In this document: positions 3,065 to 60,831 of the stretch, piece after piece
Layout: every line of letters begins with the position of its first letter
How positions within the stretch are numbered: position 1 is the stretch's first letter
NCBI GenBank assembly: GCA_023374045.1
Contig: CM041782.1
Coordinates: 253,231,810 to 253,295,809 of the forward strand
DNA length: 64,000 nucleotides
DNA from: Limonium bicolor
Lineage: Eukaryota; Streptophyta; Magnoliopsida; Caryophyllales; Plumbaginaceae
Direction: 5' to 3'
Program-made: the position numbers and the translations under genes
The notes under the pieces: model-generated
The model's input: the letters and a program-made list of their open reading frames with translations, nothing else
The model's database searches: none
What the model was told of the DNA's origin: nothing

Positions 3065-4834
3065 TGATAAGACAGGAATTTACCTATTTCTAAAGGGTCT
3101 TTTGATACCTAATATGTTACCATTAACTGCCAAATTCCTATCTTATGAGCAATTTTATGTTTTTGTTGCAATTGTCTTCTTTTATGGTTTTTGTGTGCTT
3201 TTTCAGGTTTTTATCTCAAAGGAAACACACTCCTATCACCGATGGAACACATGGCAAATCAAACAAGCTAAAACAGAATCAAGAAACTAATTCTCGACCT
3301 AAATACAAGACTGGTCCGGGACTTAATACACAACTTAAGTCCCGGACCACAATGAGGCTTCACTCTCGACTGGATTTCAAGTATGGTCCGGGACTTTGTA
3401 CAAAACTTAAGTCCCGGACCACACAGATTTGTAAGCCTCGACCTGTTTTGACACTATGGTCCGGGACTTGATACAAGACTTAAGTCCCGGACCAAGTGAC
3501 TGGAAGCGGATATCTGTAAGCTCGCGAAAGGAAGAAAAGAGAATAAAATTCTCTTTCGAACAGACCACCGCCCATGCACTAATCATCTTTCCATTATTCT
3601 TCCGCACTGTTATTTTGTCCCTTCCTGCTGCTTTCAATTATCCACAATCCCACTAAATCAAATTATTTCCCTAAATTCAGCTCATCACCCAAAAACACTC
3701 ACCTAACATACCCATCATTCCACTTACAAAACTCCAGCACCACTGTCCACCTTGCTGCTGCTACGTATTCCATGATGCAGTTCTATTAATAGAACTGAAT
3801 CTCATTCATTTTATACACAATCTGGCTGGAGAGTAATACTCCACACTCCCCAGTTCATCTCTCACGTTCCAGCCATCACCCTTTTCATCACACACCATAC
3901 ACATTCTGCAGAGAGCAAAAATACTTCAACTCCATTCACCATCCATTTTCACGTACCATTCATATCACCATTTTCCTTCAAGCAGCTGGGACTTCAACAA
4001 GTGAAGATTGAGTAGAGGGAACTGTTGGTTGTGCACAGAGACTCCATCAACGAACCTTAAAACAGAGTTTCTTCTTCTTTATTTTTAATGTTATTCACAT
4101 ATTGTTGTAGTAATTTCATTTCCATGGCTGAGTAGTTTCTATAAATTTCGGTTTACTATGTAATCCAAATTCTGAGGTTCCATTATCTTTGTGATTTACC
4201 ATTTAACAGATTAAAGTGTTGTCCCTTTATTATATAAATCTTGTGATTTGGCCAATTACTGGATTTTACCTGTTTATCTGCTTATAAGTGAGAACTGCGG
4301 TAGATAATAGACAACAGGAACAACACCGGTTAATTTAGAGATGGTAATTCCTCTAGGATATTAACTGATCATTAAACTGGATTATTCTTAAAGCTGTTAG
4401 CAATTAATAAATTTGTAACGAGAGTTAAAATTTATTAGCTGTTAATTAGATTCCACCGAGCGGGAGACCGAACGTGGAATAATTCTGTTCTAGGATTTTA
4501 ATCTAGATATCGGTAAACACACTGAGAAAGGAACCGAAGAAATTGGAGGATTAGTAAACCGGAATTTTCCTTTCCATTAATTCAAAAACATCATTGCTTT
4601 GCTCACCGTTGCTCTTGCATTTATTACCCTTGTTCTTATTTACAGTTTGCTTCAGTACTTAGTAATTCAAACAAACAAAACCCCCTGTTACTTGAGTTAT
4701 TTTACTTTGTTTTGATCTTAAATATTAATCAAACTAAAACGCTGCCTCCCCTGGATTCGATAACCTGGAGGGACACTTCTAGGAAAACTTGCTATAATCG
4801 ACCGGTATTCTTGCCGTTAGGTTTTTACCCAACA
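3065..4834 (+). repeat. ATH1 5' LTR (outer copy)
   Basis: This 1770-bp LTR is nearly identical to the 3' LTR at 15474-17254 and shares its exact 3' end (a shared run of more than 100 bp up to CCCAACA). Most differences are small indels. It is followed by AGTT and then by a partial second LTR copy rather than directly by the primer site. Confidence 0.92.
3313..3493. repeat. Array of three 36-bp palindromes in ATH1 LTR
   Basis: There are three units at 3313-3348, 3385-3420 and 3458-3493, with period 72-73 bp. The first has perfect 12-bp arms (GGTCCGGGACTT and AAGTCCCGGACC) and a 12-nt loop. The same array is at about 15722-15901 in the 3' LTR, where the second unit has lost two bases. Confidence 0.95.
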
Positions 4835-4838
4835 AGTT

Positions 4839-6169
4839 AAGAAAAGAGAATAAAATTCTCTTTCGAACAGACCACCGCCCATGCACTAATCATCCTTTCC
4901 AGTATTCTTCCGCACTGTTATTTTGTCCCTTCCTGCTGCTTTCAATTATCCACAATCCCACTAAATCAAATTATTTCCCTAAATTCAGCTCATCACCCAG
5001 AAAACACTCACCTAACATACCCATCATTCCACTTACAAAACTCCAGCACCACTGTCCACCTTGCTGCTGCTACGTATTCCATGATGCAGTTCTATTAATA
5101 GAACTGAATCTCATTCATTTTATACACAATCTGGCTGGAGAGTAATACTCCACACTCCATTTCCAGTTCATCTCTCACGTTCCAGCCATCACCCTTTTCA
5201 TCACACACCATACACATTCTGCAGAGAGCAAAAATACTTCAACTCCATTCACCATCCATTTTCACGTACCATTCGTATCACCATTTTCCTTCAAGCAGCT
5301 GGGACTTCAACAAGTGAAGATTGAGTAGAGGGAACTGTTGGTTGTGCACAGAGACTCCATCAACGAACCTTAAAACAGAGTTTCTTCTTCTTTATCTTCT
5401 TTAATGTTATTCACATATTGTTGTAGTAATTTCATTTCCATGGCTGAGTAGTTTCTATAAATTTCGGTTTACTATGTAATCCAAATTCTGAGGTTCCATT
5501 ATCTTTGTGATTTACCATTTTAACAGATTAAAGTGTTGTCCCTTATTTATTATTATAAATCTTGTGATTTGGCCAATTACTGGATTTTACCTGTTTATCT
5601 GCTTATAAGTGAGAACTGCGGTAGATAATAGACAACAGGAACAACACCGGTTAATTTAGAGATGGTAATTCCTCTAGGATATTAACTGATCATTAAACTG
5701 GATTATTCTTAAAGCTGTTAGCAATTAATAAATTTGTAACGAGAGTTAAAATTTATTAGCTGTTAATTAGATTCCACCGAGCGGGAGACCGAACGTGGAA
5801 TAATTCTGTTCTAGGATTTTAATCTAGATATCGGTAAACACACTGAGAAAGGAACCGAAGAAATTGGAGGATTAGTAAACCGGAATTTTCCTTTCCATTA
5901 ATTCAAAAACATCATTGTTTTGCTCACCGTTGCTCTTGCATTTATTACCCTTGTTCTTATTTACAGTTTGCTTCAGTACTTAGTAATTCAAACAAACAAA
6001 ACCCCCTGTTACTTGAGTTATTACTTATTTATTTTACTTTGTTTTGATCTTAATATTAATCAAACTAAAACGCTGCCTCCCCTGGATTCGATAACCTGGA
6101 GGACACTCTAGGAAAACTTGCTAATCGACGCGGTATTTTCTTGCCGTTGTTAGGTTTTTACAACCAACA
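4839..6169 (+). repeat. ATH1 duplicated LTR segment (lacks first 467 bp)
   Basis: This repeats 3532-4834 and ends CAACCAACA next to the primer-site spacer. The join after the outer LTR is AACA-AGTT-AAGAAAAGAG, so the duplication starts just inside the internal region and jumps back into the LTR. Its 3' end differs from both outer LTR ends by several small insertions. It lacks the palindrome array. A small ORF inside (5920-6111) is LTR sequence, not a gene. Confidence 0.92.
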
Positions 6170-6176
6170 AGTTTAA

Positions 6177-6194
6177 TGGCGCCGTTGCCGGGGA
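6177..6194 (+). other. ATH1 primer-binding site, tRNA-Asp
   Basis: TGGCGCCGTTGCCGGGGA is complementary to the 3' end of plant tRNA-Asp. It lies 7 nt after the LTR end, and tRNA-Asp is the usual Athila primer. Confidence 0.93.
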
Positions 6195-6415
6195 GGCACG
6201 GTTGCTTAGTTTGATTTTTATTTTAATTTTTATCTTATTTAATTTTATTTTCCTTTTTATTTTATTTCATTTTATTTATTTTGTTCCTTTAGAAACTACA
6301 TACATTACTATCAGTTATCTGATCTTGTTTATTGGTCAAAAACTCTTCTGTAGGAGACCCTGAATTCAAATCGAGCCAGAGATAGAAAGAGTAACAAGAA
6401 GGATTCAGAAAGGTT

Positions 6416-8160
6416 GTGCTGGATCCTCCAATTGAGCAGGAGGTGTGTCCTAAAAGATTCACACCAACAGAAGGAATTGTTGAAGAAGAAATTCTAAACA
6501 ACCCCTCAGGAACCAATATGGAGAATCCAGAGAGGCACATGAGGGATTACACCCGCCCAAGCGTTGAAGGGCTTACCTCACCAATAGTAATTCCTGCGTT
6601 ACCAGCAGGAGTGCAGTGGCAGTTCAAAACGCACTATGTTACTATGGTCATGAATGCACCTCAATTCAGCGGAACAATCACTGAAGATCCCAATGTCCAT
6701 CTCACCACTTTCCTGAGGTTGGTAGGAGCTTGTTCTACATCAGCTTCACAAGAGGTTGCTAGATTGACTCTCTTCCCATTCTCCCTGAGGGACAGAGCTG
6801 CAGAATGGCTAAACTCATTGACACCAAACAGTATTACTACCTGGACGGAGTTAGCAAATGCATTCTTGGCAAAATATTTCCCTCCTTCTCGGATGCTGAT
6901 GATGAGAGGAGAGATTACCAACTTTAAGCGTTCACAGGAGAGACATTATCGAGGCATGGGAGCGTTTCAAAGGGATTGTGCGCAGAGTACCACACCATGG
7001 CTTGGGAGAGGAGGTAATTTTACAGTCCTTTTATAAAGATTTGGATCATTCAAGTCGTTTGTTGGTAGACACTTGTGCAGGAGGAAGCCTCATGGAGCTA
7101 CCAATAGCTAGAATCAAGGAACTATTGGATACCATCAATGCATCCAATCAGTGGGGAGGTGCGAGAACAGGAGAAGCTGCACCGAAGAAAACCGCTGGAG
7201 TCTATGAAGTAGATTCAAATACCTTTCTAGCTGCCAAGATGGAAGCAATGTCAAAGCAGTTCGAGAAGATGTGTGCTATGATGAAACCTCAGTCAAGCGC
7301 CGCTGTTGTGACCGATTCCTTCCCACAGTGTGAGTATTGTGGTAGAAGCTCCAACATGTGCCAGTGTACTTCTCAGCAAAACGAAGAGGTAAATTATCTG
7401 GGAAACAGGCAAGGGACCTTCTACAACAACCAAAACAATCAAGGATATCAGCAACAGAATCGTTACCAAGCTGGCGGAAACAGCAATTACAATCAGAGAC
7501 CTCAGCAGCAATATAATTCCTCTTATCAGAAGCAGCCACTGCAGAATCAGCAAGTGCAGAATACAGGTGCTGGTGCATCCTCTAGTATGGATGAAGTTCT
7601 GGCCAGAATGAATGATTTCATCACTGTCAATACCAAGAAATTTAATGAGCTAGAAGCTTTCAATCAGGAGCAGAGGACCTTCAACAATGATCAAAGGACA
7701 TTCAATAGGAACATCGAAACTCAAATATCTCAGATATCACAGCAGTTAGCTCAGCGCCCCTTGGGTTCTTTACCCAGTCAATCAGAACAGAACCCGAGAG
7801 AGCACGCCAAGGCCATCACATTGAGAAGTGGTACACAGCTTGAGCCGGTGATTCCTGAAATTGAAGCTCCTCTTCCTAATGTTAAGCAAAATGAAGAAAC
7901 CACACCGAAGAGCTCTCAGGAGGAACCGGTTGAAAATGAGGTGGCTATTAGTAAGACTTCTAAGACTTCCACACCTCCACGCCGCACAGTTGATTTAGCA
8001 TCAGTGCCCTTTCCAAACCGGTTGAAAAAGAGAGACCTGGATGAGCAGTTTGGTAAGTTCTTAAGTATCTTTAAGAAACTAACCATTAACATTCCCTTTT
8101 CTGATGCATTAAAACAGATGCCGATATATGCGAAGTTCATGAAGGACATCCTGTCCAATA
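6416..8160 (+). pseudogene. ATH1 gag (one frameshift)
   Basis: This is the structural capsid/nucleocapsid protein that packages element RNA in the cytoplasm. The first in-frame ATG is at 6518 (M-E-N-P-E-R). The typical plant gag core follows, with R-D-R-A-A-E-W-L and F-L-A-K-Y-F-P-P. One extra base near 6950 shifts the frame, so the rest continues in the frame open at 6978-9686. Further on are C-E-Y-C-G and C-Q-C-like cysteines near 7330-7370 and a Q/N-rich stretch (7400-7560) of uncertain role. The exact gag-protease border is not marked in the sequence. Confidence 0.88.
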
Positions 8161-9686
8161 GACGGTCCTTAGTGGAGAAAGATACTGTGCAGCTTACCGA
8201 GAACGTTTCAGCCGTCCTTTCACAGAAGCTTCCACCTAAGCTTGATGATCCAGGTACCCCGGTCATACCTTGCGCGATAGGTAATGTGCAATGTGGTAAG
8301 GGTTTATGTGACTTAGGTGCAAGTATCAACTTAATGCCCTATTCAATATATTTGAAGCTTGGTCTAGGAGAATGTGAACCTACCCGAATTACTCTGCAAT
8401 TAGCCGATAGGTCAATCATCCTACCTAAAGGGGTGGTAAGGGATTTAATTGTTTCGGTTGGTACTTTTGCTTTCCCTGCTGATTTTGTTATCTTAGACAT
8501 GGAGGAAGACAAGGTGGTACCGCTCATCTTAGGTCGACCATTCATGCGTACAGCAAGGACCCTCATTGATGTTGAAGGAGGGAAGATTATACTTCGGCTA
8601 CATGATGAGCAGCTTGTGTTTGATATGACCAAAGCTACTACCCACCCTTCTGATGTTCATGCTTGTTTTAGTTTAGATTGTATTGATACCTTGATGCAGG
8701 ACTATTCTTACAGCCCCACAGAGCTGGATGCATTGGAGAAGTGCTTGGTAGAATCCATAGAAACAGTTCATGATGATTCTGAAGTCTCTGCTGCAGCATT
8801 TCAGCTTGCTGCTGGCAGGCCATATAGGAAGAATTACAAAATCGAAGAAGAACCGCTAGACCGAATTCCAAAGACACTAGCTCCTTCTGTGGATTCACCA
8901 CCTTCTCTTGAACTTAACCCTCTTCCTAGTCACCTTAAATATGCTTTCTTAGTTCCTCCATCTGATTTGCCTGTCATTATCTCTAACAGTTTAACCAATG
9001 AACAGGAGGAAGCCTTGTTGCAGGTTTTGAAGAAGAACAAAGAGGCATTAGGGTGGTCATTGCTGATCAAAGGCATTGCCCCTACATTCTGCACTCACCG
9101 CATTTACCTTGAGGAGAATGACAAACCAGCAAGACAACCTCAACGAAGACTGAACCCGCACATGAAAGAGGTGGTTAAAAAGGAAGTCATCAAGCTCTTG
9201 GATGCAGGTATCATTTACCCTATTTCTGACAGCGAATGGGTAAGTCCTACACAGGTCGTACCTAAGAAAGGAGGTTTAACTGTGGTACCTAATGATAAAG
9301 GTGAATTAATTCCTCAGCGTACTATTACCGGGCATAGAGTTTGCATTGATTATAGGAAATTAAATGCCGCCACTAGGAAAGACCATTTCCCCCTTCCTTT
9401 CATTGATCAGATGTTGGAGAGGCTTGCGGGACAAGACTTTTACTGTTTCTTAGATGGTTACTCCGGTTACTTTCAAATTCCAATTGCTAAGGAAGACCAA
9501 GAGAAAACTACTTTTACATGTCCATATGGTACTTATGCTTATCGACGCATGCCCTTTGGTTTGTGTAATGCACCAGCTACATTTCAAAGATGCATGACTG
9601 CTATCTTTGCTGATTTTATTGAAAAATGCATCGAAATCTTTATGGATGATTTTTCTGTCTTTGGACCTACTTTGATTCATGCTTGA
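8161..9686 (+). pseudogene. ATH1 protease and reverse transcriptase (truncated by frameshift)
   Basis: The frame is continuous with gag. The aspartic protease active site reads C-D-L-G-A-S (about 8307-8324). Reverse transcriptase follows with D-Y-R-K-L-N, F-L-D-G-Y-S-G-Y, R-M-P-F-G-L-C-N-A-P and the catalytic F-M-D-D-F-S (about 9639-9656). The protein would cleave the polyprotein and copy RNA to DNA. The frame hits a stop at 9684-9686, soon after the active site; the RT thumb continues in another frame. The palm motifs look intact. Confidence 0.92.
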
Positions 9687-10788
9687 GAGACTTGGATTTA
9701 ATCTTAGCAGGTGCAAGGAGACTAACTTGGTGCTCAATTGGGAGAAGTGCCACTTTATGGTGCAGGAAGGCATCGTGCTCGGACATAAGATTTCTAAGAA
9801 AGGGATCGAAGTAGACAAATCAAAGATTGAGGTAATAGACAGCTGCCACCACCATCGTCGGTAAAGATGTCCGAAGTTTTCTCGGTCATGCAGGTTTTTA
9901 TAGGCGTTTTGTTAAGGATTTCTCCAAGATCTCTAAGCCTCTTTGTGATCTATTAATTAAAGATGCAAAATTTGAATTACGAAAGAGTGCTTAGATGCCT
10001 TTAATTTGCTCAAGGCTAATTTGGTTTCTGCACCTATTATTGTTGCTCCTGATTGGTCATTACCTTTTGAGATAATGTGTGATGCCAGCGATTACGCATT
10101 AGGAGCAGCTTTGGGGCAGAGGCATGACAAGGTATTGAGGATAGTCTACTATGCTAGTAAGACTATGAATGAGGCACAAAAGAACTACACAACAACGGAG
10201 AAGGAGCTGCTGGCAATTGTCTTTGCATGCGACAAGTTTCGACCATACATTATTGGCAGCAAAGTCATTGTGCACACCGACCATTCCGCTCTCAGGTATC
10301 TCTTTGGAAAAGTTGATGCTAAACCTCGTTTAATCAGATGGATTTTACTTTTGCAGGAGTTTGACATTGAAATTAGGGACAAACCTGGAGCACAGAATGG
10401 AGTGGCAGATCACTTATCCCGTATGGAAATTCCAGATGATGGCAAACCGATTAACGAGTATTTTCCTGATGAGTTTGTCTACTCGATCAGTTGTCCCACG
10501 GACCCTTGGTATGCCGATATTGCAAACTACCTAGCCAAGGGCATTATTCCTCCAGAATTGTCATATCAGCAGAAGAAGAAGTTCTTCTCCACAGTGAAGC
10601 ATTACCTTTGGGACGATCCTTTTCTCTTCAAGGTTTGCGCGGACGGGATGATTCGTAGATGTGTTCCGGGTGCTGAAACAAGAGACATCCTTATCCATTG
10701 TCACGCAAGAGAAGTAGGAGGACACTTCGGGCCCGCCAAGCAGCAGCTAAGTATTGGAGGCAGGTTTCTTTTGGAAGACACTACATAA
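9679..10788 (+). pseudogene. ATH1 RT thumb, connection and RNase H (frameshifted pieces)
   Basis: One piece (9679-9864) carries N-W-E-K-C-H-F and L-G-H-K-I-S. A second short piece around 9860-9990 in another frame carries R-S-F-L-G-H-A-G-F. The piece open at 10006-10788 is RNase H with M-C-D-A-S-D-Y, T-T-E-K-E-L-L and H-T-D-H-S-A-L, which removes the RNA template. It runs into the start of the integrase zinc domain. At least three frame changes separate the pieces. Confidence 0.9.
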
Positions 10789-11773
10789 AGACTGTCATGC
10801 ATTTGTATCCACATGTGATAGCTGTCAGCGCCAAGGTAACCTTTCACGAAGGCTTGAGATGCCCTTGAATTACATCTTGGAAGTGGAACCATTTGATTTA
10901 TGGGGGATTGACTTCATGGGGCCATTTCCTTCTTCACATTCCAACCTCTATATTTTGGTGGCTGTCGATTACGTGACTAAATGGGCTGAAGCAGTGGCTG
11001 CACCTACTAATGATGCAAAGGTTGTGCTGAAATTTTGAAGAAAAACATTTTCACTAGGTTTGGTGTACCACGAGCAATCATAAGTGATGGAGGATCCCAC
11101 TTTTGTAACAAGCAGTTTGAAGCCTTGTTGCAAAAGTATGGAGTAAGACACAAGGTATCCCTACCTTATCATCCACAGACCAATGGGCAAGCTGAGGTAA
11201 CTAACACTTCGGATCTCACTTTTGTAACAGGATTGGTCTATGAAATTAGATGACGCCTTGTGGGCTTATCGGACAGCCTATAAGACACCCTTGGGAATGT
11301 CTCCTTACAAATTGGTTTTTGGGAAGGCGTGTCATCTTCCGGTAGAACTGGAACATAAATCATTTTGGGCACTTAAAGTTCTAAATTGTGATCTGCAGAA
11401 GGCCGGTGAGGAAAGGAAACTACAGTTGTGTGAACTAGACGAATTCCGAGAAGAGGCCTATGAAAATGCCAAGATCTACAAGGAACGGACTAAGAGATGG
11501 CATGATAAATTGCTTGTGAAACGAGAGTTTCGAATTGGTGACCAAGTGCTAATGTTCAATTCACGACTGAAATTATTTCCGGGAAAACTGAAATCTCGCT
11601 GGTCCGGTCCATTCACAGTTACCGATGTTTCCCCTTATGGAGTCATTGGTTTAGTCAACGAGAAAGGAGAAGCATTCAAAGTTAACGGATCACAGTTGAA
11701 ATTATACCAAGGGAGCAATGTTGCTATGGCTCATTCAACACTTTTGCTCCGGGACCCTAATTCTTCAAACTGA
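10754..11773 (+). pseudogene. ATH1 integrase (frameshifted, with a replaced segment)
   Basis: The zinc domain cysteines C-D-S-C-Q-R are near 10817. The core shows G-I-D-F-M-G-P-F, then S-D-G-G-S-H-F in a shifted frame (11035-11253), and E in N-G-Q-A-E exactly 35 residues later, the D,D(35)E pattern. After Q-A-E-V-T-N the expected sequence is missing and a 19-nt copy of nearby DNA is present (11211-11229). The frame from 11240 ([10 protein letters not shown]) continues the C-terminal domain to the stop at 11771-11773. The protein inserts cDNA in the nucleus; this copy should be inactive. Confidence 0.9.
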
Positions 11774-11996
11774 TGCACCAAGGTCTAGCCAAAGACCGAA
11801 AAGACGGGCAGCTCATTGGGAGGCAACCCAATCTCTTTTCTTCTATCCTCTTATTTTCATTTTAATTCATGTTTTTACATGTGCTAATCCCTTTGTTAGT
11901 TGTTTTCCTTTAGTTGTTTGTTGTCACAGTGTAGGAGGGATGAAGGAGGAGAAACAGAGCACACTGAGGCACTTCTTCGGTTGAAATAAACAGAGT
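11774..11996 (+). other. ATH1 post-pol non-coding block, shared with ATH2
   Basis: No gene is seen. Positions 11783-11830 (GTCTAGCCAAAGAC, ACGGGCAGCT, GGGAGGCAACCCA) are matched on the minus strand at 62162-62212 in ATH2. This shows the two Athila elements share 3' sequence. Confidence 0.8.
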
Positions 11997-12247
11997 GGTC
12001 CGGGACATGTTACAGGACCAAGTCCCGGACCAGGAAGGAAGGCAAGTCTCGAACAAATTCATGGGGTGGTCCGGAACCTGTTACAAAACTTAGGTCCCGG
12101 ACCAGGAAGGAAGGAAAATCTCGAACTAAAAATCACCGCGGTCCGGGACTTTGTACAAAACTTAAGTCCCGGACCTAGAGGCTTGAAACTCTCGACCTAT
12201 TTTTGCATAATGGTCCGGGACCTCACCCATATCTTAGGTCCCGGACC
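11997..12247. repeat. Second palindrome array of ATH1, four units, internal
   Basis: Units are at 11997-12031, 12068-12103, 12140-12175 and 12212-12247, with period 71-72 bp. The third unit is identical to the second unit of the LTR array (GGTCCGGGACTTTGTAC loop type). The same kind of array therefore exists both in the LTR and between pol and the accessory ORF. Confidence 0.95.
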
Positions 12248-12790
12248 CATACAGCTTTCAGAAACTAAAAATAAACCCGTCGTCGTCATTCTTCAGCCTC
12301 TTCTCTCACATCTGAAATCCCTAAAACTTCACATCGCCGTCGTTATTCTTCAGCTCCCGACCACCACATCACCGGCACCACCACAAACCACCGCACTCTC
12401 GCCCTCGCATTCGCCGGCCGACCACCACAACCCTAGCCGTCGTCTCTACCCCGCCTCTCGACCTCACCTTCTCTCGCCCATTTCACTACAGCCAAACCCA
12501 CCACCCACCATAGCGACAACCGTCCTCGCCACCGAAACCTCTCTCTCGAGTTCCCTGCTCCACATCACCGCACCGCACCAACACACCACCTACCCTTCCT
12601 CTCTTCCGACATCGCCAACACCACCCACTCCCTTGCTCTCGGTCCAACCTCCACACCAAACTCGCCCCCTGCCCCAGTTCAAAACACAACCACCGACCTC
12701 AACCCAGTGCCTCCACACCAATTCCCACTCCAAATTTCCACCCCGCGCACTCACACGACCAAACCAAACAATCCCTGATCCAAAATTCCA
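12248..12790 (+). other. C-rich leader before the ATH1 accessory ORF
   Basis: This stretch is very rich in C and A with CCACCA and CCGCC runs. A frame is open through it (12066-12965) but translates to low-complexity P/T/S/H without any recognisable domain, and it reads through the palindrome array. It is most likely untranslated leader or promoter sequence for the ORF at 12791. Confidence 0.55.
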
Positions 12791-14098
12791 ATGGCACCAA
12801 AGCGCGCTCGACGCAACACTGCCGGGGCTTCTTCTTCATCAGACGCTCCTCCACTCCGGGTCCGGGAGACAGTCGATTCCGACTTCATCAATGAAGCGGC
12901 TAGGAATTGGTACCATGCTCGCGAGAGAAAAATACTACCTGAAAGGTCAGTGTGTCCGACCTTAATTGCTGAATTTGATTTAGAAGCACTGTTTAATGCA
13001 CGTGGATGGGTACCTCTGTTGACTCGAGGGGGGAAATTCTACCCGAGACTGGTAAAGCTGTTCTATGCTAATGCAACGGTGAGTGATGACGGGGATACTT
13101 TTACTTCTGTGGTCAAAGGCAAAAATATTTCTGTGGACGCTCTTAGCATTAGGCGCTCTATGAACTTGCCCATAGCTGTTCGGATGCCGACTGCGGAGAA
13201 TAGGGCTAATATGCAATTATTGACTAGACAAGCTAAGGCGCATTATATTAACTTGATTGTCCTTGATCCCGAAGTTCAAAATCGGCAGCGTAGGAATAAC
13301 CGGGACAAGCAGGTTGTCACCGGGGATAAGCTACCCACCCCTAGAGAGCGTCTGATTTTAGGGATACTGATGTCTAATGTTCGCCCTCGGGAGTGCGCTG
13401 ATTTGAATGAGTATGACTGCTGGCTTATGCGTTACATCCTGGACGACGCCTATGCCGCTGCAGGGGTTCCTCCTAGTATGCATCGCATCATCTTTACTTC
13501 TATGCGCCGAGTGGTTCAGACCGAGCATTCCGCCTCTCTTCCATTTCCACACCTCATATACTCGTTACTGGCTGCCAAAGGGGTAGATGTATCTGATGAG
13601 GAGCCCCAGTACCCTCGATCTCCTCTCGATATGACCATGATGAGATTCTTCCAGTGGGAGAAGAATGACGGGCAGTGGGTGAAGCGCCGACGCGCTGCAC
13701 GCGCCCCCCGAGTTGCTGAGGCTGCTGATGAGGCTGAGGCTGTTGATGAGGTTGAGGCCGCTGCTGATGCTGCTGGTGGCGAGATCCCGGACTTCCCGAT
13801 GCCTGCTGCTACGGCCCCGGGTTATGAGCAGTTGCTACACGAGTTCAGAGATTGGAGGGGGACCGCTACAGCATACTTTGACGGCTTTGCGAGTCGTCTA
13901 GATGGATATGGTGAGAGGCTCACAGCTTTAGAGACTCGTCATACTGAGTACGAGGCTCGACAGGCTGCTCAGTTTTCTGAGTATCAGGCTCAGCAGGCTG
14001 CTCAGTTTGCTGAGTACCAGGCTCAGCAGGAGGCCCGCTTCCAGACTTATGATGAGCGCTTCTCCCAGTTAGAGTCTTGGCGCATGCCCCGGCGGTAG
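12791..14098 (+). CDS. ATH1 accessory ORF in env position (plant transposon-protein family)
   Basis: This is an intact 435-codon ORF starting M-A-P-K-R-A-R-R with a basic N terminus. The block around residues 50-110 (G-W-V-P-L-L-T, Y-P-R-L-V-K-L-F-Y-A-N, V-V-K-G-K-N-I) and the later P-R-E-R-L-I-L-G-I-L block resemble the family annotated as putative plant transposon protein in Athila-type elements. That assignment is from memory, without a search. No signal peptide or membrane segment is evident, so it is not a clear envelope protein. An acidic A/E/D stretch (about 305-330) is followed near the C terminus by three 11-residue repeats of the E-Y-Q-A-Q-Q type (13946-14044), likely coiled coil. 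Its function is unknown. It is intact while gag-pol is broken. Confidence 0.8.
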   Translation: MAPKRARRNTAGASSSSDAPPLRVRETVDSDFINEAARNWYHARERKILPERSVCPTLIAEFDLEALFNARGWVPLLTRGGKFYPRLVKLFYANATVSDDGDTFTSVVKGKNISVDALSIRRSMNLPIAVRMPTAENRANMQLLTRQAKAHYINLIVLDPEVQNRQRRNNRDKQVVTGDKLPTPRERLILGILMSNVRPRECADLNEYDCWLMRYILDDAYAAAGVPPSMHRIIFTSMRRVVQTEHSASLPFPHLIYSLLAAKGVDVSDEEPQYPRSPLDMTMMRFFQWEKNDGQWVKRRRAARAPRVAEAADEAEAVDEVEAAADAAGGEIPDFPMPAATAPGYEQLLHEFRDWRGTATAYFDGFASRLDGYGERLTALETRHTEYEARQAAQFSEYQAQQAAQFAEYQAQQEARFQTYDERFSQLESWRMPRR

Positions 14099-14514
14099 TC
14101 TATGATTTGGTTTATGCCACTTCCTACATCAGTTTATCTCTCTTTTATTGCCCTTCTGGATTTTAAGCTGACTTTGACATTTGTGTTGTTTTAATGACTT
14201 TTAGCTTGTTAGGTTTGATTTGCTGGTACTTTTCCCTTACTGGTTGGATTGTTATGGTTATTTTAGCACCTCTGCTACTGCCACTGCTTGTTATATTCCT
14301 TAACTTTGTTGCAATATATTATCTGCTGCTGCTATATTCACACAGGACTGCCATATTTTTGTGTGCGATATCAAAAGAAAACAAAGGAGACTCTGCCGAA
14401 ATTTTCACAACCCTCCTTAAGTCTCCCATTCCTTGTCATGAGTGTGGGGACATCATCTTCACCAATTATTCAGGGGAGTCCTATTTTCTCTCTTGCACTA
14501 TATTCACATTCTAG

Positions 14515-14555
14515 TAGCAATGAGGACATTGCTATTCTCTAAAGTGTGGGGATGT
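14515..14555 (+). promoter_or_regulatory. ATH1 secondary hairpin-polypurine module
   Basis: TAGCAAT and ATTGCTA arms enclose loop GAGGAC (14515-14534), followed by AAAGTGTGGGGATGT (14541-14555). It is nearly the same purine tract as at the LTR border, 0.9 kb upstream of it. Confidence 0.75.
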
Positions 14556-15437: not shown

Positions 15438-15473
15438 TGCTTGAGGACAAGCAAAGGTTAAGTGTGGGGATGT
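15438..15473 (+). promoter_or_regulatory. ATH1 polypurine tract with upstream stem-loop
   Basis: The stem TTGCTT/AAGCAA around GAGGAC (15438-15455) precedes AAGTGTGGGGATGT, which abuts the LTR start TGATAAG at 15474. Confidence 0.88.
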
Positions 15474-36537: not shown

Positions 36538-36595
36538 AAACGCTTCTTACAAAAAGTAATAAAATGAGGTATTCCTTTGAAAAGCAAAATTTTTT

Positions 36596-51502: not shown

Positions 51503-53287
51503 TGTGAGCCTCGATTTCAAACCCTATCCAAACCCTATCCTATTGGATTAAGTTGATTGGGATCTAGTCGGGTTTTAGGTCCACTTATAACCTAAGATTA
51601 ATAACTATGTCTAAAACAATAATTATTAAAACCTAAGCTAGCTCACTGGAACCTATTATGAGTCGACCTAATTTTAACCTAGATCAATTAGGAAAGGAGA
51701 GTTCGGTTCGGGGGCTTGATATTCGACTTAATTAGGGTTCATTACTTTCATTACCCTTCCTAGGTCGTTTTTCCTCTACTCAGTTTATTTACGGCTTATT
51801 ACGAGTCGTTTTAACCTAAGTGCGCAAGCTTCTGTTTTTTTGTGTTTTTTAGCGTTTTTTGACAGAAAATTAAAGTGAAATTAAAAGCTATCTAAACTAG
51901 GGTTCGGAGGCAGAATTAGGTCCAATTTTGATTACGTCCGTAGCCACGGACCAAACGTCCGAGACCACGGACCCCAGTTAACCTAAATATACAGAAAAGT
52001 CGAAATTAAAGGAAAACAAAAATTTGCAAGGTCCGGGGCCACGGACAGGATGTCCGTGGGCCCGGACATTATTAGAAAAACCTAAATTTTGAATTTTTAA
52101 AATCCCGCCGCCGTCCGTGGGTGTCCGTGGTCTCGGACAACGCGTCCGAGGTCCCGGACCATAGGTCCGAGGTCACGGACCACCCACGGACAGGGGTTTT
52201 CAGAAGGTTCCCGAGGTGTTTTGAGCTCAAATTTTATGGTGTGTAGCCTGAAAGATGTACAGACGTTAGCGATTGAAAGTTTTCAATTTGAATTCGAATT
52301 AAGCACGAAACTTAGCAAACAAGTTATCTGACAGAGTCTTAAATAAACAGCAATACAGAGCCTACGAAGGTTAGTTTGAGCCCAAATTTGAGGCAAGACA
52401 GATAATACCGTGGTGAGTCAGGGAAGTGGAGTTTCTACCTGTTTTACCTTCGGATTCACAACGTTTCTTCACACCGGGACTCGTCGAGTGCTCCGTTGAT
52501 GGCAGACCCGAGAGGATTTCGACCCAAGCTTCTGGTTGCTGGTTGTCCTTGCTGTTCTTCACGTTTTAGAGTGTTTTTTGTGAGGTTTTGATGATTATTG
52601 TGCTGTTTGGGGATTGGAAAACGTGTTTAGATGGTGATTTCGGGGGATTTCAGTATGATTTGGGTGGCCGGGTGTTGGAAAACGTGAGAGAGAGAGAGGA
52701 GGCCGTGTGTTTTCTGACTCTCTAGGTTCTTGAGTGTGTGAGGTTCTGATTTTATCCAAAAACCTATCCCCTTATATAGACTTCCTTAAAGATAAAGAGA
52801 ATCTAGTAAAAGTAAGATTTTTTCGATATTTTAGTTAAGTGACTTCCCAAAGGAATTTTGCCATGAAATTTTAACCACATGTCAAGGATGGATATTATGA
52901 ATTTTCTGAGGTGGAAACGAATTTTTTAAATGCTGGAGCATTTTTAAATTGATTTCTCGTCAGATTCAATCAGAAATTGCTAGAAAATTATTGGAAATTC
53001 GAAAAATCAAAATTCCAACGCCATTATGCTTAAAATGTCATCCTCTATCATGGGTTAAAATATCAAAGCATTTCGAGCTGATTTGGGCACCCTTCAGGAG
53101 AGAGAAAGCTTACAAGAGGTCTTAGAGCCTTTAAAGATTACCAAAACGCCCCTGAAAGTGACGAAGCTGCTCCCCATGCCATGGAACGTGCCGATCGGAC
53201 CGGGATCCCTCACCGCTTGATTAAATGCCTCTCACAACACCGGTACCACGTAGACCCTAACCAGGGGGTCAAAATTTTGGGTATAAC
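51503..53287 (-). repeat. OGL2 3' LTR
   Basis: It starts TGTGAGCCTCGA on the plus strand and ends GGGTATAAC; the final A is missing compared with the other copies. GTCCG palindromes are near 51950-52200, and a minus-strand TATATAAG box is near 52771. Confidence 0.92.
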
Positions 53288-53336
53288 GATTGCCCCCCGT
53301 CAACTGGACTTTGTAACGAATGTGAAAAGTCTGGTT
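53288..53336 (-). promoter_or_regulatory. OGL2 polypurine tract with upstream stem-loop
   Basis: On the minus strand an imperfect stem (TCAACCAGACTTT with AAAGTCCAGTTGA, two mismatches) is followed by ACGGGGGGCAATC at the LTR border. It is the same design as OGL1. Confidence 0.75.
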
Positions 53337-53399
53337 GATGCTTGAGTGGTGCCCCAAAATTTTGGACCCACCACAGAATCCTCCACGTTGTATGAAACC

Positions 53400-53890
53400 G
53401 GGTTAACGATGCCCAGCTACTCGGAGGCGCTAACTACCAACTAAAAGCTACAAAGCATGTCGAGCTATTCTAAGGCGCTGACTACCTAAGCTACAAAGCA
53501 TTGTCGAGCTATTCTAAGGCGCTGACTACCTAAAATGATGTCAAGCTATTCTAAGGTGCTGACTACCTAAAACACAAAGCATTGTCGAGCTATTCTAAGG
53601 CGCTGACTACCTAAAATGATGAAAATGATGTCAAGCTATTCTAAGGCGTTGACTACCTGAAACGATGAAAATGATGTCAAGCTATTCTAAGGCGTTGACT
53701 ACCTGAAATGATGAAAATGATGTCAAGCTATTCTGAGGCGTTGACTACCTAAAATGATGAAAATGATGTCAAGCTATTCTAAGGCGTTGACTACCTAAAA
53801 TACAAAGCATTGTCGAGCTATTCTAAGGCGCTGACTACCTAAAATGATGAAAATGATGTCAAGCTATTCTAAGGCGTTGACTACCTAGGA
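53400..53890. repeat. OGL2 tandem repeat, 46-bp and variant units
   Basis: About ten units contain TCAAGCTATTCTAAGGCGTT or TCGAGCTATTCTAAGGCGCT, GACTACCTAAAA and often GATGAAAAT spacers. They are less regular than the homologous 44-bp array of OGL1. Confidence 0.9.
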
Positions 53891-54640
53891 TGTAAAAACT
53901 GGATGGCATGCAATGCAAGAATGCTGAAATGCTAATGATGCAAATGATGCTGATGCTGATGATAATGCCGGTGATTTTGATGATGCTCGGATGCTTCTGG
54001 GGACCGAAACCCGTTCCAATGCTCCTGGTTGGTATACTATGGGGACTTATTGCCTCTGCCCACCAACTGGGGTGCTGGGATAACTTCTAGATTACCAAGG
54101 GGGACTTATTGCCACTGCCCCTAGTTGTTCTCCCAGAAGTTGACATGAAGATGGGGACTTATTGCCTCTACCCCCCAACTTAGATCACGCTCTATCTCGC
54201 ACTGAAGATGATACTAGGTCTCGTACTGGTCTCGCACTGGATGATGACGCTCGGTCTCGCACAGAAGAAGATGATGGGTCTTGCACTGAAGATGATACTA
54301 GGTCTCGTACTGGTCTCGCACTGGATGATGACGCTCGGTCTCGCACAGAAGATGATGATGGGTCTTGCACTGAAGATGATGGGTCTCGCACTAACGAATA
54401 TGATGGTCTCGCACTGATGAAGATGCATGGTCTCGCACTGAAGAAATGATGGGCCTCGTACTGATGAAGATGGTGGTCTCACACTGAAGTCCGTGCTGAA
54501 TGGCTGGATCTCACACTGATTCTAGCCCTCGTACTGAATGAAGATGCTAGGTCTCGTACTGAATGAGGAATCTGCAGGACCTTTCACCGATTTTGGGTCT
54601 CGAACTAAAAATAAGTTAGGAGGATATGGTCTCGTGCAAA
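53891..54640. repeat. OGL2 mixed low-complexity block
   Basis: GATGCTGATG-type microsatellite, GGGGACTTATTGCC phrases and a TCTCGCACTGAAGATGAT-type tandem array (54190-54480). ORFs on both strands are repeat translations. Confidence 0.85.
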
Positions 54641-57600
54641 TGGTAAAACTGATCACTGGAGTGCCAACATGGCAATGATGATAAGATGTATGCAATCAAA
54701 ATATATGAAGATACTCGTTCAGAACAGGAATTTGTTGGAAAAGGTGCCAACGTGGCAGTGTTTGAAGAAACTTGTTTATTGAAAAGGAAGTGAAATTATC
54801 ATTTCCTGACCATAGATTTCGGACTTGCAATTTATCTCCTAGGATGAACATGCCATCGGTGGTATGGTGTATGATGTAAGGTAAGGGCTTATGTGGGCCT
54901 GTGTAGTTTGATGTGCAGGTAAGGGCTTTTGTGGGCCTGTGTAGTGGTGTTGTGGAGGTAAGGGCTTATGTGGGCCTGTGGTGGGGAATGTGGTGGTGAT
55001 GTTTGAGCTTTGGGTTCCAATTGGCGTTGTCATAGCAATTGTTGGAACCAACAATTGCCCCCAGTATTTTTCCCTTAAGACAATCTGAGCTAGAGTTCAT
55101 GGCAATCGATCGGAACGATCGATTGCCCCCAGTATTTCCTTTTATGAAACGTGTGAACGAGTCTCGTCCTCACAGGGTCAAGGCTTATATTTTACGTGGT
55201 GCTTCCTAACCTACACTCGGCGTGTTTGGTGTTTGCACTCGTTCCTCACCCACGGTCACAACTTCTAGACCATTGAATTCGATATTTGATGAATTTACGC
55301 ATTCGATCTGTTACTTTCACGTGATTAGACACACAACTATCAAGTCGGAAGTCTTTAAAGCTTATAACATGGCCATAGGGTGTGATGAATGACAACAGGA
55401 TCATGGAGGGATATTGAGGTATGTGGAGCTTAAATGGGTGACCAAAGCTGCAACTTGTGTCTTCTCTCAGATTCATCTTCCTTGTCTTGAAGTCGTCTAG
55501 CTGCTTCATGTCGATGTTGTTTTCGAGCTTCTGGACTTGGACTTTTGAAGTTGTCCTTTACCCATTTCTCTTTTTGTCATTTGGATTTCTTCGAGGCACT
55601 TCGGGATTGCCTTTTGTTTTATCCTTTCTTGACTTTTCCTTCGGGGTTCTTGTGTTTCCCGGTTTTGAACTTTGAGAGCTGTTTTGGATGTTAGCTCATT
55701 TGATCCTGTGTCCCTCTGGGACCATTTGCGGATCGCTTCGCCATGCTGATAGCGGCATTGCTTCTCTGGACTGATGAGAATGTATCTGAGAGTCGGGCTC
55801 CTCGCTTCTTTGGTCACCGGGTCGAACATTCATCATTGGCCGGGTTATTTTGTGGAGTTCATAATATCAAAAGGGGATATATGAAAGGCTCAGCGGGGGT
55901 GCCTAGGGTTTAACGTCAGGGTTCACAAGCTTTTGGCTATGTGGTGTTGTACCTAGGTGCTTCGTCATTCCTGATAGTTGTGTATCCATTCTTGTTACTT
56001 TTCACAGGTCTAAGCGTAAATTTACAAATTATCTCCTTCGGTCGGAGTTATGCCGTTTACCCTACCTTTGAATGTGGTCTCACCGGGTCGTGTAAAAATG
56101 ACACGCTCGTTCGCTCATGGTTTTTCCGCTCAGACACTCTCTCGTGAATTTCACTCAGAGACTAGTTCACACGCTTAAACGAAAGATGAAAGATGACGAA
56201 CCTAAACTCAGATTGCCCCCAGTATCGATTTGGGGTTAGTGACAACAATTTAAAAGATATGGATTTGGAACCGCTTTGGGGGTTATTTGGATGTTTTGGG
56301 ATAAGATGTGGGGTTTGGTAAGGCATGCTCAAAACTTCAGAAACAAAATACAAGTCTTTGTGTTTCCATTGTCGGGATAATTAATTCATGAACCATTTTC
56401 TCAAAAGAGACTTGTGTGAAACAAAACCCTTTTTTTTGTTATCATTTAGACTTGAAAAAGTCATTCATTTGTGAACATGAGGAAGAAGATGATTCAACAA
56501 AATCGATGCTTCTTATTAGTGGTTTGAAAAACGATCATTCTTTGAAAAACATGAGAGGTGCATTTGAAAGATGAGTGTTATGGCAGGTTATGCAGTAGAA
56601 TGCATAGGAACCCTAAAATTTCTATTGAATCGAAATCCTGCTGAACCGTCTAAAGTCGGCATGCTGAAGACTCGAGCTCTTGACCGCTGGGATGTCGCTA
56701 AGATGACTGTGATCGTCTTCCTTCCAAACTTCGAGTAGGCCCTGTAAAATGTCCAAACTAGGAATGCCTATGGGTTATGTAGGAAGCAATTGGGCCTGAG
56801 TCTTCGCAAACTGGGAGTGAAGTGCATAGACTAGAGTGATTCCTAGACTAGAACGGACATGTAGGCCTGAATCCAGGAACTGAGCAAACAAGCTGAAAGA
56901 AATCACATGGACCGCGAATGGGCCGCTGGGCCGAAGGATAAGCCTTGAAGTCTAGATTTGTTTGATGCTCTTGTTGGGCCTTGAAGCCGGAAACTGGATG
57001 AATGAGTTATGCAAGCTATCCTGGATCCAAATGTTTTATGAACCGAAGCTCATGGGCCAAAACTATGAATTGGTCTATGGGCTCGAACGGAATGAGTTAT
57101 GAGTGTGGTACTGGGCCAGAATGATTGCTCTACATGTGAACTGGAATTTGGGCCGAGTGATTTTGGTTGGGCCTAAAGATGACACCTAGATCTAGGATTT
57201 TGGGTTAGGGTCATGATAAGAAGTCTACCTAGACTAGAATGAGCCTTTGGGCCGAATGTGTTTGGGCATAAGTAAAGCACATGAGCTGGAATGGTCCCTA
57301 AATCACAAATGGGCCTAACTTTCTTCGGGCCAGAGAAGATGGTTGCTAAACGAAAAAGGTTTTATTTTCAGGACTTGTGAGTTATTTCAAGTTCAGGTGG
57401 ATTTCTTTTTTATGGGCCTAGGATTAATTGGATAATTCAAATTGGGCCGGAAGAGAAATCACCTTAGTCTAGGCTTTTGAGCCGAAGCCCGAACGACTCA
57501 CATGTTAAACCAAACAGGGCCTCTGGGCCGCAAACAAATAGAGCTGCCAATTCGTGTTGGGCTAGGTCGATGTAGGAGAAGTTCCTATCAATCTCTAGGC

Positions 57601-58137
57601 TGGGTAGTGGGCCGTTCACACAAGCAAACAAGGCCCACACAAATTCAACATGTCCTCACTTGACGGTTAAATCAACTTGGGAATGGATCGATCCGGAGAG
57701 GTGCTTGGGGCTTGGGCCCAGGTTACCACAAAGGAATAGGGCTTGCACGCTATTCTCTTTGGGCTCCCCACTTTTTCACATCACTGTTAAGTGTGCGTCT
57801 ACGGTCGGGTCTTTGAATGACCAAACATTGGGCTTGGTAAGGGTACTACCAGGAAAACGCTTGGGGCTAAGGCCCAGGTATTAAGGGGGTGTGGTTAGAC
57901 GACACCCTCCTCTTTTCCCTCGCTTATTCACATCACCTAAAAGGTGTGAGTCCCTGACAGGGGACCCTCAACGGGTCCCGGGGTGAAATTGGCTTGCATG
58001 GACCCTCGCTCTCATATGATGCAAGGGTGCAAAAATTAAAGTGCGCACAAAAGTAAACAACAAGTAGAAGCCATAAATAAACATTTTCAAGTTAAGCCCT
58101 CTCTCTTAAAATCAAACAAGTTAAAATTAAGAAGTTT
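54641..58137. other. OGL2 internal unique region, no gene
   Basis: The part up to about 55960 is shared with OGL1. The rest is seen only here; it includes many TGGGCC words (56930-57620), a phrase block GGCCCAGGTTA/GGCCCAGGTATTA (57700-57890) and a GC-richer leader before the primer site. The ORFs at 55246-55829 and 57660-57884 have no domain. Confidence 0.75.
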
Positions 58138-58155
58138 GTCCCCAGCAGATCGCCA
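58138..58155 (-). other. OGL2 primer-binding site, tRNA-Arg-like
   Basis: On the minus strand TGGCGATCTGCTGGGGAC lies 3 nt from the LTR. It resembles the complement of the plant tRNA-Arg 3' end used by Ogre elements, with several mismatches or a small deletion. The match is from memory. Confidence 0.7.
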
Positions 58156-58158
58156 GTC

Positions 58159-59931
58159 TGTGAGCCTCGATTTCAAACCCTATCCTATGTGGATTAAGTT
58201 GATTGGGATCTAGTCGGGTTTTAGGTCCACTTATAACCTAAGATTAATAACTATGTCATAAAACAATAATTATTAAAACCTAAGCTAGCTCACTGGAACC
58301 TATTATGAGTCGCCACCTAATTTTAACCTAGATCAAATTAGGAAAGGAGTTCGGGTTCGGGGCTTGATATTCGACTTAATTAGGGTTCAATTACTTTCAT
58401 TACCCTTCCTAGGTCGTTTTTCCTCTACTCAGTTTATTTACGGCTTATTACGAGTCGTTTTAACCTAAGTGCGCAAGCTTCTGTTTTTTTGTGTTTTTAG
58501 CGTTTTTTGACAGAAAATTAAAGTGAAATTAAAAGCTACCTAACTAGGGTTTCGGAGGCAGAATTAGGTCAATTTTGATTACGTCCGTAGCCACGGACCA
58601 AACGTCCGAGACACGGACCCCAGTTAACCTAAATATACAGAAAAGTCGAAATTAAAGGAAAACAAAAATTTGCAAGGTCCGGGGCCACGGACAGGATGTC
58701 CGTGGGCCCGGACATTATAGAAAACCTAAATTTTGAATTTTTAAAATCCCGCCGCCGTCCGTGGGTGTCCGTGGTCTCGGACAACGCGTCCGAGGTCCCG
58801 GACCATAGGTCCGAGTCACGGACCACCCACGGACAGGGGTTTTCAGAAGGTTCCCGAGGGTGTTTTGAGCTCAAATTTTATGGGTGTGTAGCCTGAAAGA
58901 TGTACAAGACGTTAGCGATTGAAAGTTTTCAATTTGAATTCGAATTAAGCACGAAACTTAGCAAACAAGTTATCTGACAGAGGCTTAAATAAACAGCAAT
59001 ACAGAAGCCACGAAGGTTAGTTTGAGCCCAAATTTTGAGGCAAGACAGATAATACCGTGGTGAGTCAGCGAAGTGGAGTTTCTACTTGTTTTACCTTCGG
59101 ATTCACAACGTTTCTTCACACCGGGACTCGTCGAGTGCTCCGTTGATGGCAGACCCGAGAGGATTTCGACCCAAGCTTCTGGTTGCTGGTTGTCCTTGCT
59201 GTTCTTCACGTTTTAGAGGTGTTTTTGTGAGGTTTTGATGATTATTGGTGCTTTGGGGATTGGAAAACGTGTTTAGATGGTGATTTCGGGGGATTTCAGT
59301 ATGATTTGGGTGGCCGGGTGTTGGAAAACGTGAGAGAGAGAGAGGAGGCCGTGTTTATGACTCTCTAGGGTTCTTGAGTGTGTGAGGTTCTGATTTTATC
59401 CAAAAACCTATCCCCTTATATAGACTTCCTTAAAGATAAAGAGAATCTAGTAAAAGTAAGATTTTTCGATATTTTAGTTAAGTGACTTCCCAAAGGAATT
59501 TTGCCATGAAATTTTAACCACATGTCAGGATGGATATTATGAATTTTCTGAGGTGGAAACGAATTTTTTAAATGCTGGAGCATTTTTAAATTGAATTTCT
59601 CGTCAGATTCAATCAGAAATTGCTAGAAAATTATTGGAAATTCGAAAAATCAAAATTCCAACGCCATTATGCTTAAAATGTCATCTCTATCATGGGTTAA
59701 AATATCAAGCATTTCGAGCTGATTTGGGCACCCTTCGGAGGAGAGAGAAAGCTTACAAGAGGTCTTAGGAGCCTTTAAAGATTACCAAAACGCCCCTGAA
59801 AGTGACGAAGCTGCTCCCCATGCCATGGAACGTGCCGATCGGACCGGGATCCCTCACCCTTGATTAAAATGCCTCTCACACACCGGTACCACGTAGACCC
59901 TAACCATGGGGTCAAAATTTTGGGTATAACA
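58159..59931 (-). repeat. OGL2 5' LTR
   Basis: 1773 bp, nearly identical to 51503-53287. Palindromes lie near 58590-58840. The minus-strand TATATAAG promoter box is near 59416. Confidence 0.93.
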
Positions 59932-59936
59932 TATAG
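59932..59936. repeat. Target-site duplication TATAG, right copy (OGL2)
   Basis: Matches 51498-51502. The ATH2 LTR continues with GCTAAGGAAATAAAG. Confidence 0.93.
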
Positions 59937-60831
59937 GCTAAGGAAATAAAGAAGCAAACAACAGAGTGGTTGTGGACGGTGCAGTCGGTGCGATTGAATG
60001 GCGGTGGAGTTGGTGAGCAGATCGCGGGCAACAGTGATTGATTGCAGACAGGGTCGGCGTCACGCGTGAATTAGAGAATTGCGGTAGTCACCGTCTGCAA
60101 TTAATGAAGTGCGGCGCCGCGAAGGAAGAATGGAAAATCGGAGAAGAAAACTAGTCGCGCGCGCATGAATTAGCACGTCCGCCTCCTTGTCCGCGAGTTT
60201 AACAGGCGGTTGCGCCTGTGATGTCCGCTACTTATCAGGCGGACTCCACACACATGTCCGCGAGTTTAACAGGCGGTTGCGCCTGTGATCTCCACGACCA
60301 AACCAGGCGGACTCCTCTGTGATGTCCGCGAGGCGGTTGTCTCTACCTTGTCCGCTCCAAAATCAAGCGGACTCCCTCCTGTTGTCCGCCCTCGTACCTC
60401 GCAAGTTCAAGCGGTTCTTCATGCGGACGTAGCTTCTTTGTCCGTGTGTGATTGAATTCAATCTTGTGCTGCAGTACGTGATGATGATTAATTAATCATC
60501 AATAATAAAGTAGCAGTAATGATGGTTCGTGAGTGTAGTGAATTTGTTGTACTCATTTGTTATATATGCCACGTGATAAAAAAAATGATGTACAACATCT
60601 CGTAAGCCTTTTTCCATGTACATGCTTATGTTGAGCGTGTAATATATAATATATTATGAGACAAAGAGTGTGAATCCAATATATTTTCTGCATTTGACAC
60701 ATAATATGTATCAGTTCACATCAAAAGCATAAATCTAGGAAAATCGTAAGATAAGTGAGAGATATTACTTAAAATACTGCAAATTATAAGGTAGTTAAAC
60801 CCTTAAAAGTCTATATATCTCGCACTTATCA
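59937..60831 (-). repeat. ATH2 middle LTR, second part
   Basis: It continues 50496-51502 and ends CGCACTTATCA. It holds the GTCCGC array at 60188-60390 with period 67, 68 and 60 bp. Confidence 0.92.
60188..60390. repeat. GTCCGC/GCGGAC array in ATH2 LTR
   Basis: TGTCCGCGAG units start at 60188, 60255 and 60323, with a last TGTCCGCC at 60383. Each contains GTCCGC...GCGGAC and GGCGGTTGCGCC-type inverted repeats. Copies are in both palindrome arms. Confidence 0.88.

Follow-up and report, generated by a model that had tools for sequence, protein, structure and literature searches.

Palindrome arrays with a period near 72 bp in Ty3/gypsy long terminal repeats of Limonium bicolor: candidate regulatory modules that may pass between lineages

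We analysed a 64,000-nt stretch of the Limonium bicolor genome (GCA_023374045.1, contig CM041782.1, positions 253,231,810-253,295,809; assembly of 2.92 Gb in 2686 contigs), hereafter the window, in which nested retrotransposons carry regularly spaced arrays of palindromes, mostly in their long terminal repeats (LTRs). ATH1 (about 3063-17254) is an element that we take to be Athila-type from its primer site, polypurine tract and gene order. Its 5' LTR starts at about 3063 and its 3' LTR lies at 15471-17254 (plus strand), the two being 98.8% identical across 1.78 kb. ATH1 appears to be inserted within TK2, a chromovirus reading on the minus strand, with an LTR that runs from about 20800 down to about 18821. 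TK1 consists of a chromovirus-type 3' end plus LTR, with another LTR element apparently inserted at about 25572. Both TK1 and TK2 gave Pfam matches to SH3_Tf2-1 and to a chromodomain behind the integrase; the TK2 chromodomain (PF00385) scored 28.1 bits against a cut-off of 25.1, and that of TK1, at 22 bits, fell under the cut-off. Pieces of a further element, ATH2, were located between 46 and 64 kb.

The initial annotation reported five palindrome arrays, one in an LTR of each of these elements and a second one inside ATH1. We used a finder that accepts inverted repeats with a pairing score of at least 9 and a loop of at most 20, and calls an array where three or more lie at 45-100 bp. Four of the five passed, and that of ATH2 failed. 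The ATH1 5' LTR array (3312-3494, plus strand) comprises three 38-bp palindromes (3312-3349, 3384-3421 and 3457-3494; TGGTCCGGGACTT..AAGTCCCGGACCA) with centre-to-centre distances of 72 and 73 bp. In its 3' LTR counterpart (15721-15902, plus strand), the finder accepts two of the three palindromes, the middle one failing. The ATH1 internal array (11996-12247, plus strand) has four palindromes spaced at 71.5-72 bp and lies between pol and an open reading frame (ORF) at 12791-14098. The TK2 LTR array (19693-20001, minus strand) has five palindromes (TGTCCGAACTTG..CAAGTTCGGACA) spaced at 63-75 bp, and the TK1 LTR array (25169-25420, plus strand) has four, 72-73 bp apart, every unit holding a third half-site at its centre. 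The loop limit matters, as a limit of 16 loses the TK1 array. The finder also overlooks worn arrays, such as one with four palindromes of score 7-8 in L028 (labels of this form denote sampled stretches of the same genome outside the window).

The ATH2 array (60188-60390, minus strand) is built of palindromes only 16-22 bp long (GTCCGC/GCGGAC and ACAGGCG/CGCCTGT, with CAGGCG/CGCCTG within it) and stays below the strict threshold of the finder. By Tandem Repeats Finder (TRF), the period is 34 at this location, compared to 67 for the copy at 46682-46808. A second copy of this array lies at 48966-49170 on the minus strand (48966-49072 by TRF, the remainder by eye), and a third, inverted, at 46665-46808 on the plus strand.

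Most units are 36-40 bp long, some 22-27 bp, and the spacers are roughly as long as the units. By eye, a unit in TK1, TK2, L013 or L025 may be divided into three half-sites, each of 11-12 bp, the outer arms being inverted and the third lying between them; the same reading is possible for ATH1 and L009/L017, with a worn middle. A period of 72-73 bp is shared by ATH1, TK1, L009, L017a, L014 and L028.

Chance expectation was estimated on 294 kb from 36 sources: the window, twenty 10-kb stretches taken at fixed 16-Mb steps along one chromosome (contig C1), and 15 stretches of 2 kb from other contigs. Real sequence held 95 GC-rich palindromes, compared to a mean of 8.8 and a maximum of 17 in 200 dinucleotide shuffles. 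Seven arrays were called, four of them inside the window, compared to none in any shuffle; one of the seven (L020) belongs to a CACTA-type DNA transposon and lies in no LTR. The shuffles likewise lacked palindrome pairs at 45-100 bp, of which the real sequence had 27, including 17 at 70-75 bp. Distances between palindromes peaked at 72, 144 and 216 bp, in a count of pairs that includes sister units of one array and CACTA-type elements. The period of about 70 bp given in the initial annotation held up, as did the arrays in the comparison with shuffled sequence that it had suggested.

Palindromes of the GGTCCGGG, GACCGACC or GGACCGCC kind with a score of at least 9 occurred in eight of the twenty 10-kb stretches (L009, L011, L012, L013, L014, L017, L022 and L025), and L028, with its lower-scoring units, was a ninth. 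Among the fifteen 2-kb stretches, L068 and L072 had two such palindromes each and L069 had one. By the scoring applied, GTCCG..CGGAC was the most enriched inverted pair of 5-mers (75 occurrences compared to 1.5 in 10 shuffles of 264 kb, with 32 in the reverse order), and GACCG..CGGTC stood close to the top of the same list. In the viral_contigs collection, the palindrome pattern was found in at least 120 stretches and, among the 80 matches listed, at one place in each. The spacers also share words: ACTCTCG was present in 6 of 13 arrays, where 0.13 was expected and the best word in 300 random sets reached at most 6, and AGTTTCT in 7 of 13. Since several of the carrier arrays are kin, this is only suggestive of a shared spacer motif.

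We compared variation in the arms with that in the surrounding sequence. The ATH1 LTR alignment has 42 rows from 40 places (L001 and L003 duplicate the two LTRs of the window); the array itself served as query for retrieving the copies, and of 3808 candidates 40 were scored, which makes it no census. Within it, the minor-allele fraction was 0.006 in the arms (78 columns), 0.051 in spacers, 0.058 in loops and 0.117-0.120 in flanks, making the arms about eightfold less variable than the spacers. Variants seen more than once numbered 0.038 per arm column compared to 0.232 per spacer column, and singletons were likewise fewer in arms (0.0024 per letter) than in spacers (0.0059).

The internal array was found by position instead, using eight pairs of LTR matches to predict its place in other elements. 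It was present in seven of the eight (L076-L082, with 4, 4, 2, 4, 4, 4 and 3 palindromes, respectively), a result that concerns the array only. The eighth, L083, whose LTR pair lies 20.7 kb apart, had no internal array at the predicted position. Across these arrays (8 rows), variation stood at 0.047 for arms, 0.097 for loops, 0.187 for spacers and 0.167 for the sequence outside, such that the arms were about fourfold less variable than the spacers. Within the part corresponding to 8000-15470, only 11779-12324 of ATH1 matched the fetched pieces of L080 and L081, and only 11782-12300 that of L082; the array thus persists despite differing upstream sequence. The idea that other copies carry the arrays was, for ATH1, borne out by position for the internal array, while for the LTR array it rests on 40 aligned places retrieved by that array.

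Arms also change in pairs. In 20 class-2 units from five arrays, two of which (the second rows of L012 and L025) were misplaced by the parser, 193 of 220 arm cells pair; when right arms were redealt within each array, this level was reached in 13 of 5000 permutations, and when they were redealt across arrays it was never reached. Paired changes of the forms ACC/GGT, AAC/GTT and GAC/GTC were seen in TK1 and L013, the latter having mixed units too. Palindromes could arise as a mutational by-product, with template switching between arms perfecting them and unequal exchange multiplying them, and with no function for the element. That the outer arms co-vary and the middle half-site does not is what such a process would give, and tandem repeats are frequent in these elements. 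However, the likeness of the arms extends beyond the single unit, across elements and lineages; the arms persist at the ATH1 places that were aligned and in seven of eight internal arrays, and they occupy matching positions across lineages. We therefore regard a pure by-product as very unlikely.

Covarying arms would equally be expected if read-through or genomic RNA folded into a row of 11-15-bp hairpins for packaging, dimerisation or host small-RNA production, and the within-array permutation is a point in favour of this. Predicted RNA folding far exceeded that of shuffled sequence (z -12.5 for ATH1 and -5.7 for TK1), although any row of palindromes would fold in this way. At the 40 ATH1 LTR places, G.T mismatches affected 5 pair positions (12 cells) compared to 2 positions (2 cells) for A.C, as fits a hairpin in the sense RNA, and other mismatches affected 4 positions (4 cells). 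The internal units of ATH1 (n = 29) showed the opposite, with five A.C, no G.T and seven other mismatches. Class-2 units had 11 G.T, 6 A.C and 10 other mismatches, but L012 alone contributes six of the eleven G.T, three being one shared pair and the other three coming from the misplaced unit. The direction of wobble is thus inconsistent across sets and neither prefers nor excludes an RNA hairpin. Hairpins need neither a fixed period nor similar spacers, and a scan of the window with Rfam found no family at gathering score. Small RNAs are drawn to the LTR palindromes of maize Sireviruses, according to the sections concerned of one report (PMC10760457), which speaks for hairpins; overall, we consider an RNA role unlikely. 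Among the roles suggested in the initial annotation, protein binding is the predicted one, favoured over folding in RNA, for which the arm mismatches give no consistent signal.

Related LTRs can differ in the class of palindrome they carry. L009 matches L013 and L014 at 73-89% identity in pieces on either side of the array, and yet its palindromes are of the GGTCCGGGTTTG kind compared to GACCGACC or GACCGGAC in L013/L014. L017 and L022 show a similar contrast, with a sequence match on one side only. Because alignment is poor right beside these arrays, a block larger than the array may have been replaced. Differing classes between related LTRs are also what escape would produce if the palindromes were sites for a host silencing factor, kept merely through the youth of the elements and of no benefit to them. 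CG and CCG are targets of plant DNA methylation, and the arms are rich in both. Such a history would predict loss of sites, yet the elements keep them in several copies, even where the upstream coding part differs. CpG decay is low in the arms (247 CG, 4 TG/CA) but absent in the spacers (82 and 0), such that the arms are not set apart. Silencing sites without a gain to the element are, in our view, the least probable of the alternatives.

L028 provides the closest link between lineages. Like L009, L013, L014 and L017, to which it is kin through the sequence behind its array, it is labelled chromovirus-type from LTR likeness only. Its array (2741-2994) consists of four ATH1-kind palindromes (TGGTCCGGGACTT) spaced at 72.5-73 bp and matches the ATH1 LTR array in inverted orientation (E 5e-11, 73.5% identity over 189 columns) as well as the ATH1 internal array, again inverted (E 5e-7). 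In a separate alignment with ATH1, 93 of 109 palindrome letters and 46 of 65 spacer letters were identical. The score of 105 compares to means of 72-73 with shuffled spacers and to 33 in the other orientation; of the trials with shuffled spacers, 1 of 500 and 0 of 300 reached 105. Because the L028 array aligns with that of ATH1 with its spacers included, it is apparently the array itself that moved, for this one pair, between Athila-type and chromovirus-type lineages. Six other chromovirus arrays showed no clear difference from their shuffled versions when compared to ATH1 (smallest share 17 of 300, for L009 inverted). Between the exchange of a module and convergence, which the initial annotation had offered as alternatives, exchange is therefore favoured for ATH1 and L028, and the other six arrays lack such likeness.

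Descent alone could account for this pair: one module would have moved between families as nested elements recombined, and a common function would not be required. The inverted alignment, spacers included, and the nesting of elements within the window both fit, and we place this explanation slightly short of an even chance. Against it, the six other chromovirus arrays align with ATH1 only in the palindromes, classes differ, and exchange alone leaves the constancy of the arms unexplained. Descent is compatible with the reading we prefer, given below, which requires both exchange and function.

The ATH1 LTR array starts 250 bp into the LTR (in the 3' LTR, 15471 to 15721), leaving about 320 bp between its end and a TATA-like TTTATACA downstream. 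That of ATH2 occupies the region about 250-455 bp ahead of a TATA-like box. This box was recognised by eye as TATAAATA at 48707-48714 (minus strand), and an insertion interrupts it in the 60188-60390 copy. The TK2 array lies about 800-1107 bp inside its LTR. Splice-like sites, seen by eye around a chromovirus array, could mark a leader intron. The ORF downstream of the ATH1 internal array and behind pol (435 aa, 12791-14098, plus strand) matches Pfam Transposase_32, and its position is presumably that of the env-like gene of Athila elements.

A comparable architecture is known from Sireviruses, which are Ty1/copia elements. In the sections concerned of Bousios and others (2010), Sirevirus palindromic repeated motifs (RM) have a CGG-CCG core in 12 of 13 cases, are located in the LTR and, in env-carrying elements, upstream of ENV, and are kept within an element and different between elements (PMC2829016). 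There the RM are called Sirevirus-specific and absent from classic retrotransposons, with roles proposed in regulation and as an internal promoter (PMC2829016). The arrays described here resemble them in the clustering of palindromes in LTRs (in ATH2, palindromes of shorter length) and in the CGG-CCG core, present as GTCCG..CGGAC and GACCG..CGGTC. A further likeness is the second cluster of ATH1 at 11996-12247, upstream of the ORF that we presume to be env-like. In those sections, Sirevirus RM start 200-400 bp into the LTR and upstream of the TATA box; here the start is at 250 bp in ATH1, upstream of TATAAATA in ATH2 and at about 800 bp in TK2. Unlike Sireviruses, the carriers here are Ty3/gypsy elements, and their units are longer (36-40 bp, often with three half-sites) and spaced at about 72 bp, whereas no period is given in the sections concerned.

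Maize provides a second comparison: the parts concerned of that report describe CACCGGAC..GTCCGGTG palindromes with strong predicted structure in Copia LTRs, and in Helitrons too, and maize Ty3 elements as generally without an obvious peak of miRNA-like structure (PMC10760457). Palindromes and strong predicted structure are alike here, and the Ty3 carriers differ. By analogy, we interpret the arrays as a Sirevirus-like regulatory architecture in Ty3/gypsy elements, with the anatomy of ATH1 as a close match. A literature search (titles and abstract openings of the papers listed, outside subscription journals) found no account of such arrays in Ty3/gypsy LTRs. Repeated, partly palindromic activator boxes are also known from the LTR (U3 region) of Tnt1, a copia element, with other sequence and other spacing. 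Box I of the Tnt1 U3 is named in the Sirevirus paper, in the sections concerned (PMC2829016).

We propose, with a probability of roughly 0.5, that the arrays are cis-regulatory modules, namely clustered palindromic sites to which host DNA-binding proteins would bind as dimers, and that these modules have been exchanged between Ty3/gypsy lineages. In favour are the placement of arrays ahead of TATA-like boxes in ATH1 and ATH2 and ahead of the gene behind pol in ATH1, the low variation of the arms, the common period, the likeness of units and spacers between ATH1 and L028, the word shared by some spacers, and the parallel with Sireviruses. Sites would recur about every seven turns of the helix, and the array would act as an upstream element of the LTR promoter; the internal copy of ATH1 could serve the promoter of the gene behind pol. 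At least one such transfer would have taken place between Athila-type and chromovirus-type lineages. A change of palindrome class would follow a change of binding protein or escape from a repressor. Protein binding, promoter function, and the direction and route of exchange are what we infer from these sequence patterns.

Several observations weigh against this proposal. Spacings in TK2 and L012 (63-88 bp) are partly out of helical phase, and a possible TATA box of TK2 (about 20690) precedes the array, which would place it in a transcribed leader. Retrieval of the ATH1 LTR copies with the array as query may flatter the constancy of the arms, and the G.T excess at those places fits a hairpin. 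Outer arms co-vary while the middle half-site is constant, for which pairing or arm-to-arm copying is simpler than independent half-sites. Of six arrays picked for being less related, three of which are kin all the same, four contain ACTCTCG, and 68 of 2000 random sets had some word that did as well.

LTR regulatory sequences usually look unrelated between families, and a shared scaffold with exchangeable motifs would depart from that. The feature extends beyond Sireviruses, in arrays apparently able to pass between lineages. Lying ahead of two transcription units in a single lineage, such a scaffold would offer a sequence-based route to the host factor that was proposed for Sireviruses in 2010, and a means of asking whether one and the same factor is needed by, or silences, unrelated retrotransposons. 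As a more speculative extension, which we hold to be possible though doubtful, unrelated plant transposons (copia Sireviruses, Athila, chromoviruses and perhaps CACTA) may all depend on, or be opposed by, one host protein family that reads CGG-CCG palindromes. The scaffold of palindromes at every seven helical turns would be kept and the palindrome class swapped as the protein diversifies, through capture of whole arrays of other families in either orientation and paired changes of the arms. The alignment of ATH1 with L028 adds some weight to this extension.

CACTA elements are DNA transposons whose subterminal repeats contain many short palindromes. Those of the CACTA-type L020 are 72-73 bp apart, as in the arrays, with a different core, GGCGGTT. 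The GGCGGTT palindromes of L018, L020 and L025 were considered as a third LTR class and set aside, since L018 and L020 show CACTA-type ends (CACTAGTACAAAAA, which we take to be such an end); L025 has the same core without a visible CACTA end. At L018:7400-7900, a CACTA-like end holds GGTCGGTCC/GGTCCGACC-type sequence resembling class-2 LTR arrays. In chromovirus-type elements, the region around the primer binding site forms a palindrome too, at L020:8059-8086 (GTATCAGAGCGGTACTCCGCTCTGATAC), L013:9749-9772 and L067:1765-1788. In the part concerned of one paper, LTR retrotransposons are described as inserting with a weak preference at palindromes (PMC6911290), and nothing here bears on that.

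Other features of the window include the primer binding site of ATH1 after the 5' LTR (6177-6194, plus strand), recognised from its motif. The ATH1 5' LTR is trailed by a partial second copy of itself, with 3532-4838 repeated as 4839-6173, without the palindrome array. A search of viral_contigs with the TK2 reverse transcriptase piece found no relative. An LTR element at 51530-59931 (LTRs 51530-53287 and 58174-59930, 97% identical) apparently interrupts an ATH2 LTR within its TATA box, CTATA being the apparent target-site duplication. A further family has a palindrome, GTCCGGGGCCACGGAC..GTCCGTGGGCCCGGAC, in its LTR at 52031-52067 (copies at 26094-26130 and 58677-58713) and 21-bp GTCCG repeats at 52123-52183. 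Two GTCCGGG..CCCGGAC palindromes of the same kind lie about 94 bp apart at L072:519-649. The element at 30419-41904 resembles Retand (PMC11963269); it has 0.41-kb LTRs that are 98% identical, a 44-bp tandem array at 36594-37178, and an antisense ORF with a weak Transposase_28 match below the Pfam cut-off.

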